NCBI RefSeq assembly: GCF_022348185.1
Contig: NZ_JAKRFD010000007.1
Span: 124,001 to 188,000, forward strand
Direction of reading: 5' to 3'
Length of the DNA stretch: 64,000 nucleotides
Source: Epibacterium sp. Ofav1-8
GTDB lineage: Bacteria > Pseudomonadota > Alphaproteobacteria > Rhodobacterales > Rhodobacteraceae
Shown here: piece after piece, positions 46,441 through 49,908 of the stretch
Layout: the number at the start of each line of letters is the position of its first letter
Position numbering within the stretch: position 1 is the stretch's first letter
Translations under genes and position numbers: made by a program
Notes under the pieces: generated by a model
Databases searched by the model: none
What the model was told of the DNA's origin: nothing
What the model saw: the letters and a program-made list of their open reading frames with translations, nothing else

Positions 46441-48024
46441 TCAGCCGATGTCCTTGTAGGAAATCTCGCGCGCGTCAGCGCCTTCGCCCATCTTGTCGCG
46501 GCGCACGATCAGGCGGTTGAGCGCATCGATATAGGCCATGGCGGAGGCCACCACCGTATCGGTATTGGCGCTGTCGCCGGTGGCGATGACGCCGTCCTCT
46601 TCGAGGCGCACGGACACCGTCGCCTGCGCATCGGTCCCCTCGGTCACCGCATGCACCTGATAGAGTTGCAGATGCGCGGAATTCGGATGGATCTTGCGGA
46701 TCGCCTTGAAGGTCGCATCCACCGGACCGTCGCCCTCGGCGGTTTCGGTGACATCGGTGCCGTCGACTTCCATCTCGACGGTGGATTCCGCTGGACCACC
46801 GGTGCCGCAAACCACCTTCATCGAGACCAGTTTAAGATGATCGTCCTCATCGCCGCTGGTGCGCATGAGCGCGATAATGTCGTCGTCAAAGACCTCTTTC
46901 TTGCGGTCGGCCAGCTCCTTGAAGCGGACGAACAAGTCCTTGAGCTGGTTGTCGCCGACCTCATAGCCGAGGTTGGTGAGCTTGTCGCGCAGCGCCGCGC
47001 GGCCCGAATGTTTGCCAAGCGGAAGCGAGGTTCCCGCAAGGCCAACGTCCTCGGGGCGCATGATCTCAAAGGTTTCCTTGTTCTTGAGCATGCCATCCTG
47101 GTGGATGCCGCTCTCATGGGCAAAGGCGTTCTTGCCGACAATGGCCTTGTTGAACTGCACGTTGAAGCCCGAAACGGTGGCGACACGGCGCGAGATATGC
47201 ATGATCTTGCGGGTGTCGATGCCGGTGGCAAATGGCATGATGTCATTGCGCACCTTCATCGCCATCACCACCTCTTCGAGCGCGGTATTGCCGGCGCGTT
47301 CGCCAAGACCGTTGATGGTGCACTCGATCTGGCGCGCGCCCGCCTCGACAGCCGCCAGCGAGTTCGCAGTCGCCATGCCAAGGTCGTTGTGGCAGTGGGT
47401 GGCAAAGACAATCTCATCCGCGCCGGGGACGGTTTCGATCAGGCGGCGGATCAGGTCGGCGCTCTCGCGCGGGGCGGTGTAGCCAACCGTGTCGGGGATG
47501 TTGATGGTGGTCGCACCCGCCTTGATGGCGATCTCGATCACCCGGCAGAGGTAATCCCATTCGGTGCGGGTCGCGTCCATCGGCGACCATTGCACATTGT
47601 CCACGAGGTTGCGGGCATGGGTCACGGTCTCGTGGATGCGCTCGGCCATCTCGTCCATGGTGAGGTTCGGAATCGCGCGGTGCAGCGGCGAGGTGCCAAT
47701 AAACGTATGGATGCGCGGCTTGGCGGCCTTGCGCACGGCCTCGGCGCAGCGGTCGATATCCTTGAGGTTGGCGCGCGCCAGACCACAGATCACGGAATTC
47801 TTGGAGCGTTCTGCGATCTCGCTCACGGCCTTGAAATCGCCCTCAGAGGCGATCGGAAAGCCGGCTTCGATAATATCGACGCCCATGTCATCCAGAAGCT
47901 CGGCAATTTCGAGCTTCTCATCATGGGTCATGGTGGCGCCGGGGCTCTGCTCGCCATCACGCAGAGTGGTGTCGAAAATCAGAACGCGATCCTGCGGGTT
48001 CACGGTGTCGGTAATGCTGGTCAT
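46441..48024 (-). CDS. leuA: 2-isopropylmalate synthase
   Basis: 527 aa, LeuA type 1. The TIM barrel begins with LIFDTTLRDGEQSPGATM near residue 15, with metal ligands in ATHCHNDLGMATANS near 205 and NGLGERAGNTALEE near 240. The C-terminal leucine-binding regulatory domain is complete. It condenses acetyl-CoA with 2-oxoisovalerate, the first step of leucine synthesis. ATG at 48024 follows AAGAAAGA. Upstream lies a leucine-rich leader peptide and hairpin. Confidence 0.96.
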   Translation of the reverse strand: MTSITDTVNPQDRVLIFDTTLRDGEQSPGATMTHDEKLEIAELLDDMGVDIIEAGFPIASEGDFKAVSEIAERSKNSVICGLARANLKDIDRCAEAVRKAAKPRIHTFIGTSPLHRAIPNLTMDEMAERIHETVTHARNLVDNVQWSPMDATRTEWDYLCRVIEIAIKAGATTINIPDTVGYTAPRESADLIRRLIETVPGADEIVFATHCHNDLGMATANSLAAVEAGARQIECTINGLGERAGNTALEEVVMAMKVRNDIMPFATGIDTRKIMHISRRVATVSGFNVQFNKAIVGKNAFAHESGIHQDGMLKNKETFEIMRPEDVGLAGTSLPLGKHSGRAALRDKLTNLGYEVGDNQLKDLFVRFKELADRKKEVFDDDIIALMRTSGDEDDHLKLVSMKVVCGTGGPAESTVEMEVDGTDVTETAEGDGPVDATFKAIRKIHPNSAHLQLYQVHAVTEGTDAQATVSVRLEEDGVIATGDSANTDTVVASAMAYIDALNRLIVRRDKMGEGADAREISYKDIG

Positions 48025-48110
48025 GTCAGATGTCTTTCTTGCTCGGGTCCCCGCGGCGCTGTGGCGTCCTGTTCGGGGGGAAGGGTCCAATCCATGGCGC
48101 GCATGCACAT

Positions 48111-48146
48111 CCTCTGAGCGGGCGCGCCGGATGGCACGCTCAGAGG
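48111..48146 (-). promoter_or_regulatory. Leader hairpin of the leuA attenuator
   Basis: On the minus strand CCTCTGAGCG, a 16-base loop, CGCTCAGAGG: a perfect 10-bp stem. Its 5' arm contains the last codon and stop of the leader peptide, so a ribosome finishing the leader would block it. No U tract follows, so it may be the anti-antiterminator or act on translation or through Rho. Confidence 0.7.
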
Positions 48147-48226
48147 CGGATTAGGAGCAGTAGGCCACGCGAAAGCGCGCCGCGGGTCGCAGCGTCGGCA
48201 ATCTGGATATCGGCACACGTGGTCAT
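48140..48226 (-). CDS. Leucine-rich leader peptide of leuA (LeuL-like)
   Basis: 28 codons: starts MTTCADIQIA and ends GLLLLIRL. The run of four Leu codons is CTA CTG CTC CTA, two of them the CTA codon that is rare in GC-rich genomes, and two further Leu codons lie close by. This is the standard design of an attenuation leader that stalls ribosomes when leucyl-tRNA is scarce. The -10 hexamer TATAAC ends seven bases before the ATG, so transcription may start at the ATG and the leader may be leaderless. leuA starts 115 bases downstream. Confidence 0.82.
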   Translation of the reverse strand: MTTCADIQIADAATRGALSRGLLLLIRL

Positions 48227-48233
48227 GGGCCGA

Positions 48234-48261
48234 GTTATACAGGCCATGCGGCGAATGGAAA
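48234..48261 (-). promoter_or_regulatory. Candidate promoter of the leuL-leuA transcript
   Basis: On the minus strand TTTCCA, a 16-base spacer, TATAAC (preceded by TG, an extended -10). The predicted start point falls on or within two bases of the leader peptide ATG at 48226. Confidence 0.6.
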
Positions 48262-48384: not shown

Positions 48385-49908
48385 ATGACACGGCTTGTAT
48401 TGGTATTGGGCGACCAGCTGTCCGAAGGATTATCAGCGCTGACGGCGGCTGATCCCGCACGCGATGTGGTGGTCATGGCCGAAGTGATGGATGAGGGCAC
48501 CTATGTGCCGCATCATCCCAAGAAGATCGCTCTGGTTCTGGCTGCGATGCGCAAGTTTGCGGCCCATTTGCGTGCGCAGGGCTGGCAGGTGGCCTATCGC
48601 CGTCTGGATGAGGAGGGCGCTGACAGCATCGTGGGGGAGTTGTTGCGACGGGCCGAGGAATTTGACGCCTCTGAGGTGTTGGCGACCACGCCCGGCGAAT
48701 GGCGGCTGATCCGCGCGCTGAAATACGCCCCTCTCAAGGTCCATTTCCACGCGGATGACCGTTTCCTGGCGACGCGCGCGGATTTTGCCGACTGGGCAGC
48801 GGGGAAAAAACAGCTTCGGATGGAGTATTTCTATCGGCTGATGCGCAAGAAAACCGGCCTGTTGATGGAGGGGGACGCCCCGGCAGGCGGCAAGTGGAAC
48901 TATGATTCCGAGAACCGCAAAGCGCCACCAAAGGAGATCGACCATGCTGGCCCGCCCCGGTTTGAGCCTGATGGTGACGTCAATGAGGTGCTGGATCTGG
49001 TCGAGGCTCGGTTTGGCACCCATTTTGGCGAATTGCGCCCGTTCTGGTTTGCCACCACCCGCGATCAGGCGCTGGAGGCACTGGCGCATTTCATCACCCA
49101 TGCCCTGCCGCAGTTTGGTGATTTTCAGGACGCGATGATGACGGATGAGCGCTGGCTCTATCATTCGATCCTCTCGCCCTATCTGAACATCGGTCTTCTT
49201 TCACCGCTGGAGGTCTGCGAGGCCGCAGAGGCAGAATGGCAGGCGGGGCGCGCGCCGCTCAACGCGGTGGAGGGGTTCATTCGCCAGATCCTGGGCTGGC
49301 GCGAATTTGTCCGCGGCATCTATTTCATCGAGGGCGAGGATTACCCCAGCCGCAACGCGCTGGGTCAGACGCGCGCCTTGCCGCCGCTCTATTGGGGGGC
49401 GGAAACCGGGATGCAGTGCCTGTCGCAAGTGGTGCGGCAAACCCAGGAAGAGGCCTATGCCCACCATATCCAGCGGCTGATGGTGACCGGCAATTTTGCA
49501 TTGCTGGCCGGGGTCGATCCCGCCGAGGTGCACGACTGGTATCTGGCGGTCTATGCGGATGCGTTTGAATGGGTGGAGGCCCCCAATACGGTCGGTATGA
49601 GCCAATTTGCCGACGGTGGCATCATTGCCTCCAAACCCTATGTGTCCAGCGGCGCCTATATCGACAGAATGTCCAACTATTGCGCCAGTTGCGCCTATAA
49701 GGTGAAGCAGAAAACCGGCGAGGGGGCCTGCCCGTTCAACTTGCTTTACTGGCATTTTCTGAACCGTCACCGGGATCGGTTCGAGGGCAATCCGCGCATG
49801 GGCAATATGTACCGCACATGGGATCGGATGGACGCTGACAAGCGGGATGTGATCTTGCAGGAGGCCGACGCCTTCCTTGCCAAACTGGAGGCGGGCGAAA
49901 AGGTTTAG
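48385..49908 (+). CDS. FeS-cluster bacterial photolyase/cryptochrome (FeS-BCP, PhrB type)
   Basis: 507 aa. The N-terminal Rossmann-like domain begins LVLVLGDQLSEGLSAL. The catalytic helical domain has GFIRQILGWREFVRGIYF and MSQFADGGIIASKPYVSSGAYI. Four Cys at 345, 433, 436 and 449 (GMQCLS, NYCASCAYK, GEGACPFN) match the [4Fe-4S] ligands of the prokaryotic (6-4) photolyases. It should repair (6-4) photoproducts using light. ATG at 48385 is divergent from the leu leader. Its stop overlaps the convergent gene by four bases. Confidence 0.92.
   Translation: MTRLVLVLGDQLSEGLSALTAADPARDVVVMAEVMDEGTYVPHHPKKIALVLAAMRKFAAHLRAQGWQVAYRRLDEEGADSIVGELLRRAEEFDASEVLATTPGEWRLIRALKYAPLKVHFHADDRFLATRADFADWAAGKKQLRMEYFYRLMRKKTGLLMEGDAPAGGKWNYDSENRKAPPKEIDHAGPPRFEPDGDVNEVLDLVEARFGTHFGELRPFWFATTRDQALEALAHFITHALPQFGDFQDAMMTDERWLYHSILSPYLNIGLLSPLEVCEAAEAEWQAGRAPLNAVEGFIRQILGWREFVRGIYFIEGEDYPSRNALGQTRALPPLYWGAETGMQCLSQVVRQTQEEAYAHHIQRLMVTGNFALLAGVDPAEVHDWYLAVYADAFEWVEAPNTVGMSQFADGGIIASKPYVSSGAYIDRMSNYCASCAYKVKQKTGEGACPFNLLYWHFLNRHRDRFEGNPRMGNMYRTWDRMDADKRDVILQEADAFLAKLEAGEKV

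Follow-up and report, generated by a model that had tools for sequence, protein, structure and literature searches.

A leucine leader with a pseudoknot upstream of leuA in Rhodobacteraceae and its likeness to the actinobacterial LEU element

How could a short leucine-rich reading frame control leuA where the strong hairpin across its stop codon is followed by no U tract? This question is raised by a locus in the window, the whole stretch of 64,000 nucleotides of Epibacterium sp. Ofav1-8 (Rhodobacteraceae) that was analysed here. A comparable arrangement, the LEU element, has been described before actinobacterial leuA and consists of a leucine leader, a pseudoknot and a base stem that joins leucine codons to the Shine–Dalgarno (SD) sequence of leuA (Seliverstov et al. 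2005, PMC1262725). Other attenuator elements are said there to be missing, and the mechanism is left unsettled. Leader mutations in Streptomyces coelicolor are reported there to have some effect, inconsistent with classical attenuation, and leucine-codon mutations are later stated to be without influence on regulation (PMC1262725).

A leucine leader upstream of leuA

The gene presumed to be controlled and the leader before it occupy the minus strand of the window:

46441 to 48024, minus strand: leuA, 2-isopropylmalate synthase of 527 amino acids (domains HMGL-like, HCS_D2 and LeuA_dimer), the presumed controlled gene
48140 to 48226, minus strand: leader open reading frame (ORF) of 28 codons plus TGA, predicted to be leaderless (ATG 48226-48224, TGA 48142-48140)
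48152 to 48163, minus strand: leucine run CTA CTG CTC CTA, codons 22–25, read from the sequence
48206 to 48211, minus strand: GATATC, codons 6–7; in the leader comparison [C/G]ATATC is kept at this place

Translation of the minus strand gives MTTCADIQIADAATRGALSRGLLLLIRL as the leader product, and the spacing from the leader stop codon to the leuA start (48024) is 115 nt. An earlier sequence-only reading had described the 28-codon frame, its leucine run and a 10-bp hairpin at the stop codon upstream of leuA, all of which we confirmed in the sequence; its assignment of the leader to leuA is borne out by comparison with related loci. The window taken alone would not convince, and it is conservation that makes the element stand out. 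Folding of the region from the leader ATG to leuA is unremarkable (z -1.25, window sequence).

Conservation and distribution

Upstream regions of leuA were collected from 111 loci (L001–L111), comprising the best 30 relatives of a genome search and 80 named contigs. One locus is a second copy of the window locus, which leaves 110 loci with 107 distinct upstream sequences, all of them the closest leuA relatives. Every one of the 110 loci has a leader counterpart ahead of leuA; that position is by choice, because the loci were fetched by leuA. The initial ORF search left 14 loci without a leader, and all 14 have one farther upstream (12 of them before a cupin-like gene), so that the full set carries it. 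The stop at the anchored place is TGA throughout (110/110), partly by construction because the anchor motif itself contains TGA; outside the family the stop within the P2 stem described below may be TAA or TAG (L143; L166, L167, L176). The leucine run closes with CTA in 94 of the 107 distinct leaders and with CTT in the other 13. Codons 6–7, which correspond to roughly +16 to +21 in the predicted mRNA, are nearly devoid of synonymous variation: among leaders of 27–28 codons, codon 6 is CAT in 57, GAT in 25 and GAC in 1, and codon 7 is ATC in 74. Two of the fetched records call for comment in their own right. L040 (JAHVJD010000011.1) is named Nocardioides marinus and has a roseobacter-like leuA region, so the name looks wrong, and L152 (NZ_CP081282.1), an 18-kb Phaeobacter inhibens ‘plasmid’ with leuA, the leader and rlmJ, is possibly a chromosomal fragment or an assembly artefact.

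To follow the element further we used R1, a covariance model built from 96 sequences. Counting one match per genome at E ≤ 1e-3, R1 matched 272 of the 292 genomes in the order sample. All 272 belong to the window's own family, many of them are roseobacters, and some had supplied training sequences. In the window's own genome the leuA site is the sole match better than E 1. The 20 genomes without a match are 19 of genus g24 plus G405. We rejected the reading of these misses as losses, as the five that were inspected (G023, G258, G384, G397 and G405) all have the leader or element, as does the weak g24 match G433. Leaders of g24 have diverged (..LRGLLLLTLR*) and also use CAC and ATT at codons 6–7, and the element of G405 stands upstream of a cupin-like gene.

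Applied to 385 genomes of a class sample, R1 gave 11 extra-family matches, each of them situated before leuA. A second model, R2, trained on 45 sequences that included those 11, matched 53 of the 385 genomes, 48 of them outside the family and 37 of these new; at the E 0.01 per genome used, about 4 of the 385 could be chance. The best 14 of the 37 new matches, together with 4 from a phylum sample, were upstream of leuA in 18 of 18 cases (for L189, at a contig edge, the distance to leuA was worked out by hand), and the count for all best-scoring extra-family matches that were fetched is 29 of 29. The phylum sample yielded 31 matches in 299 genomes, all in Alphaproteobacteria; the class make-up of the 299 is not listed. 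Distant leaders often end LLLLxRP* or LRLxxP*, and their P2 is often CCCCTGAG/CTCAGGGG. The leucine run can be short in other alphaproteobacterial families, where CTN CG[A/G] CTT occurs in 9 of 18 loci. R1 gave no match at yeast-type leuA, two rhizobial and one betaproteobacterial (L160, L192, L193), nor at Sphingomonas L161, which R2 scored at 17.1 bits; three of these loci (L161, L192 and L193) nevertheless show frames rich in leucine codons.

Searches of Rfam release 15 returned a single tRNA elsewhere in the window above the gathering threshold, nothing credible in the leader region at E ≤ 10 and no match in 8 relatives. No Rfam family covers the element; the architecture is already known from the actinobacterial LEU element. 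We found no report of the element in Alphaproteobacteria in the open-licence PMC literature. Vitreschak et al. (2004) and subsequent papers from the Gelfand and Lyubetsky groups could contain an alphaproteobacterial element.

A predicted leaderless start

Two promoter-like motifs precede the leader ATG in the window:

48234 to 48239, minus strand: -10 box TATAAC, ending 7 nt before the leader ATG
48256 to 48261, minus strand: putative -35-like TTTCCA, 16 nt from the -10 box; relatives have a TTTtCATT-like motif here

The sequence-only reading had proposed an extended -10. The TATAAC box does end 7 nt before the ATG, but it is not a canonical TGnTATAAT because the TG directly adjoins TATAAC; a sigma-70 pattern scan found no promoter in the leader region. 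Across the 107 distinct leaders, 95 have a match to TATAAT of at least 5/6 that ends 4–10 nt before the leader ATG, most commonly at 7 nt (42 leaders) or 8 nt (32 leaders). Shuffled upstream sequences placed a -10 in this interval in a mean of 2.9 leaders and a maximum of 8, and the ATG of leuA itself is so preceded in 0 of 110 loci. The leader ATG was chosen for the length closest to 28 codons, independently of the promoter. SD-like tetramers precede the leader ATG in 4 of 107 cases and the leuA ATG in 22 of 110; because leuA itself so seldom has one, the missing leader SD is a weak sign of leaderlessness. The prediction of a leaderless mRNA, with transcription starting at or next to the leader AUG, is well supported because of the -10 boxes at 4–10 nt in 95 of 107 leaders against the shuffled mean of 2.9. 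The earlier proposal that the mRNA begins at the leader ATG thus stands, as a prediction, on the position of the -10.

A pseudoknot across the leader stop codon

Two helices, P2 and P3, cross each other downstream of the leucine run:

48137 to 48146, minus strand: P2 5' arm CCTCTGAGCG, which holds the leader stop codon (from sequence and comparison)
48111 to 48120, minus strand: P2 3' arm CGCTCAGAGG, a perfect 10-bp complement of CCTCTGAGCG across the stop codon
48122 to 48128, minus strand: P3 5' arm GGCGCGC, within the P2 loop (from comparison)
48096 to 48102, minus strand: P3 3' arm GCGCGCC, downstream of P2, which would complete an H-type pseudoknot (from comparison)

Over the 9 pairs counted for P2, 100% of cells in the alignment of 96 sequences are paired; for the 6 counted in P3 (GGCGCG with CGCGCC, crossing P2) the figure is 98.8%. 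The alignment across relatives that had been proposed earlier as a check on the leucine codons and the stem came out in their favour, with a leader at every locus and P2 paired in every cell. In P3, CG is replaced by UA in 4 sequences, 3 of them close relatives. Double-change cells in P2 and P3 together number 7, compared with a shuffled mean of 0.4, and those of P3 trace to about two lineages. The covariation score of P2 plus P3 (0.032) is exceeded by two slid controls (0.036 and 0.037), and the number of pair types shows no gain over shuffles (171/500). On a wider alignment, which was fitted to P2, this helix has 22 double-change cells, a number reached by 0 of 500 shuffles. RNAalifold applied to the 96 sequences predicted P2 only and did not predict P1, the base stem considered below. 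The minimum-energy fold of the window pairs the P3 5' arm inside the P2 loop; such folds cannot show pseudoknots, and a similar alternative has been noted for the actinobacterial LEU element. A pseudoknot inside a base stem, as in that element, is found in the window's family.

Predicted pairing of the leucine codons with the region before the first gene

The base stem, P1, would bring the leucine codons to the region ahead of the next gene:

48147 to 48154, minus strand: P1 5' strand CTAATCCG, the leucine-codon side of the base stem, present also in the minimum-energy fold
48087 to 48094, minus strand: P1 3' strand TGGATTGG, forming 8 pairs of which two are G-U and lying 62 nt ahead of the ATG of leuA
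48155 to 48158, minus strand: GCTC, a possible continuation of P1 with GAGC at 48044-48041 near the leuA ribosome-binding region (minimum-energy fold only)

P1 in the window is weaker and farther from the start codon than in most relatives, and extra sequence separates its 3' strand from leuA, as in L077. At 101 loci, after 9 whose first gene lies more than 75 nt from P3 had been dropped, the mean duplex energy of the leucine-codon strand was -12.99 kcal/mol with its own partner and -10.04 kcal/mol with swapped partners (z -13.4). Watson–Crick runs of at least 6 occur in 54 of 66 cluster representatives, compared with 33.5% of swapped and 13.4% of shuffled pairs. Swapping removes shared ancestry only in part, and clustering lessens its effect. 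An earlier test with a clipped target region had less power and pointed the same way (z -11.7 over 110 loci); only 23 of these loci ranked within the best 5% of shuffles.

A set of 12 loci offers a different first gene, as a cupin-like gene lies between the leader and leuA in L005, L006, L014, L015, L028, L050, L057, L062, L064, L068, L090 and L091 (Pfam Cupin_2 was tested for L006, and the other 11 were judged by eye). In 11 of these 12 the best P1 run takes in the AGGA of the cupin gene. Both strands vary together among the cupin loci, with TCCTAATC/GATTAGGA in L006, TCCTAACT/AGTTAGGA in L014, TCCTAACC/GGTTAGGA in L028 and TCCTAATTC/GAATTAGGA in L057. The cupin-like gene may be a functional partner of leuA.

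Judged from these alignments and swaps, P1 covaries across the family. Throughout the family the leucine codons can pair at the SD of the gene that follows, or often just upstream of it instead; at many loci P1 lies 15–25 nt before the ATG, that is, upstream of the likely SD. The conservation of the element and its potential to pair are matters of observation.

Relation to known leaders

The architecture is that of the actinobacterial LEU element: a leucine-run leader ORF, a pseudoknot and a base stem are common to both. The two differ in phylum, and the one actinobacterial LeuA that was compared (Microbacterium) is 25.5% identical. They also differ in the placing of the stop codon: the P2 5' arm of Microbacterium and of Nonomuraea lies (by eye) inside the ORF before the stop, whereas the stop of the window's family is within P2. 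Upstream of the Microbacterium leuA (L151) we recognized by eye MQFGLLLLSCRDESSD with TACGCT 6 nt before the ATG, GCTTCTTC/GAAGAAGC at the SD, a P2 of 11 bp and what may be a P3. Applied to 4 actinobacterial leuA leaders, R1, which was trained on the window's family, found 2 (29.0 and 21.1 bits) and missed 2. The Nonomuraea record L159 (NZ_LT559118.1), an 11.85-Mb ‘plasmid I’, is presumably the chromosome.

Leaderless leaders are known from other systems. In Streptomyces lividans, leuL1 MRFGLLLLSCRGEGL is reported to be leaderless, with a mapped start site, and to lack a typical Rho-independent terminator (PMC8079986). It shares with the window's family a leaderless leader of leuA, with a start that is mapped there and predicted here. 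For the leu leader of C. diphtheriae, no start site could be assigned (PMC5784534). Closer in taxonomy is trpL of Sinorhizobium meliloti, described as a leaderless leader peptide whose attenuator yields the sRNA rnTrpL (PMC10117765). Both are alphaproteobacterial leader peptides ahead of a biosynthetic gene, leaderless in Sinorhizobium and predicted to be so here; they differ in that trpL yields an sRNA, whereas the leuA leader family is without a conserved terminator.

Mycobacteria have leaderless polycysteine short ORFs on which, as Canestrari et al. are said to have found in 2020, stalled ribosomes free a downstream ribosome-binding site. These resemble the predicted leuA leaders in being leaderless short ORFs with a run of one amino acid and differ in the amino acid (cysteine) and in the phylum. 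We know of no pseudoknot in them.

Possible mechanism and alternatives

We consider it probable that the element corresponds in Alphaproteobacteria, by relationship or by analogy, to the LEU element of Actinobacteria, and that a predicted leaderless short ORF exerts translational attenuation of leuA. The steps that we infer are initiation on a leaderless mRNA, ribosome stalling and the consequence for leuA. Transcription would begin at or next to the leader AUG, and ribosomes would start on the bare 5' end of the mRNA. With ample leucine, a ribosome would soon reach the UGA and depart. The vacated RNA could then fold into the P2/P3 pseudoknot closed by P1, a structure supported by conservation and covariation. 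Once P1 formed, the leucine codons would mask the region just upstream of the start of the next gene and lower its translation. When leucyl-tRNA is scarce, a ribosome lingering on the leucine codons would block P1 and leave the ribosome-binding region exposed. The leucine codons would thus act as sensor and anti-Shine–Dalgarno at once. Rho-mediated loss of downstream transcription from untranslated leuA is a possible further consequence.

Folding calculations with a ribosome mask are consistent with parts of this scheme. A mask on the leucine codons opened the region from -30 to -4 before the first gene at 80–83 of 97 loci, raising its mean openness from 0.48 to about 0.60; the same mask placed nine codons upstream gave 0.49, and in this modelling the control speaks for translational attenuation. 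Between the SD and the start codon (-16 to +2) the change was small, from 0.625 to about 0.67, with 51–57 loci going up and 23–29 going down among the 97. A mask at the stop codon opened the region equally at the 97 loci, so a switch must rest on dwell time. At the window locus the mask left openness unaltered (0.68 to 0.67). This null result, the weak P1 of the window and the reported S. coelicolor mutants count against translational attenuation.

A scan of the window found no intrinsic terminator with a U tract between the leader and leuA, and between P2 and the first gene TTTT occurs in 10 of 101 loci and TTTTT in 1. The missing U tract had been taken earlier as a hint of a non-classical output; the comparison agrees, and it is towards the ribosome-binding region that the covarying helix is directed. 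A leader rich in leucine codons and a strong hairpin spanning its stop codon would suit classical transcription attenuation by terminator and antiterminator hairpins. Because no U tract is conserved, we rejected a classical attenuator with a terminator and regard this reading as very unlikely; translational attenuation would explain the absence of a terminator. The lack of a conserved terminator to release the leader also weighs against the suggestion of the sequence-only reading that the released leader RNA acts in trans. Such action by RNA or peptide would follow the Sinorhizobium trp leader, with rnTrpL and peTrpL as the analogy (PMC10117765). We saw nothing else in its favour, the conservation found is explicable in cis, and we hold it to be extremely improbable.

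Transcription might instead be attenuated through Rho or pausing, with the leader and pseudoknot setting RNA polymerase pausing or Rho loading and P1 secondary. Rho would be needed here because no intrinsic terminator is conserved, and it has been raised for actinobacterial cys leaders in the 2005 paper (PMC1262725). The covarying partner of the leucine codons, however, lies just before the start of the first gene and, where a cupin gene comes first, matches its AGGA, which better fits control of translation, and we consider Rho or pausing unlikely. A pseudoknot bound by a regulator protein or other ligand, as the 2005 authors proposed for Actinobacteria, would agree with the near-invariant letters of P2 and P3 and with S. 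coelicolor mutants that are reported not to fit classical attenuation (PMC1262725). A mere protein site would need no stop codon, yet the stop is kept in the P2 arm even as TAA or TAG, and the leucine run and leader start are conserved as well; we judge such binding to be quite unlikely.

If translational attenuation is correct, it would extend translation-acting, amino-acid-sensing leaderless short ORFs to a second phylum. The mechanism of the LEU element has been unsettled since 2005, and the version in the window's family, with a predicted leaderless start and a covarying helix, makes it directly testable. We raise tentatively, while leaning against it, the broader idea of one ancient leaderless LEU ribosome sensor common to Actinobacteria and Alphaproteobacteria, in which the leucine codons would serve as anti-Shine–Dalgarno of whichever gene comes first and one helix would at once read the supply of leucyl-tRNA and set the translation of leucine synthesis.

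Additional observations

A 29-amino-acid ORF on the minus strand of the window (48110-48021, TGA ending at 48021) shares an ATGA with the start of leuA, an overlap of the type seen in translational coupling. We took this frame, from the ATG at 48110, as probably a chance occurrence, because it is interrupted in Tritonibacter horizontis (L077). The divergent neighbour of the leader (48385-49908, plus strand) encodes a protein related to deoxyribodipyrimidine photolyase (DPRP). In the window's own genome, a crude pattern for leaderless Trp leaders that ignored the reading frame gave 6 matches.
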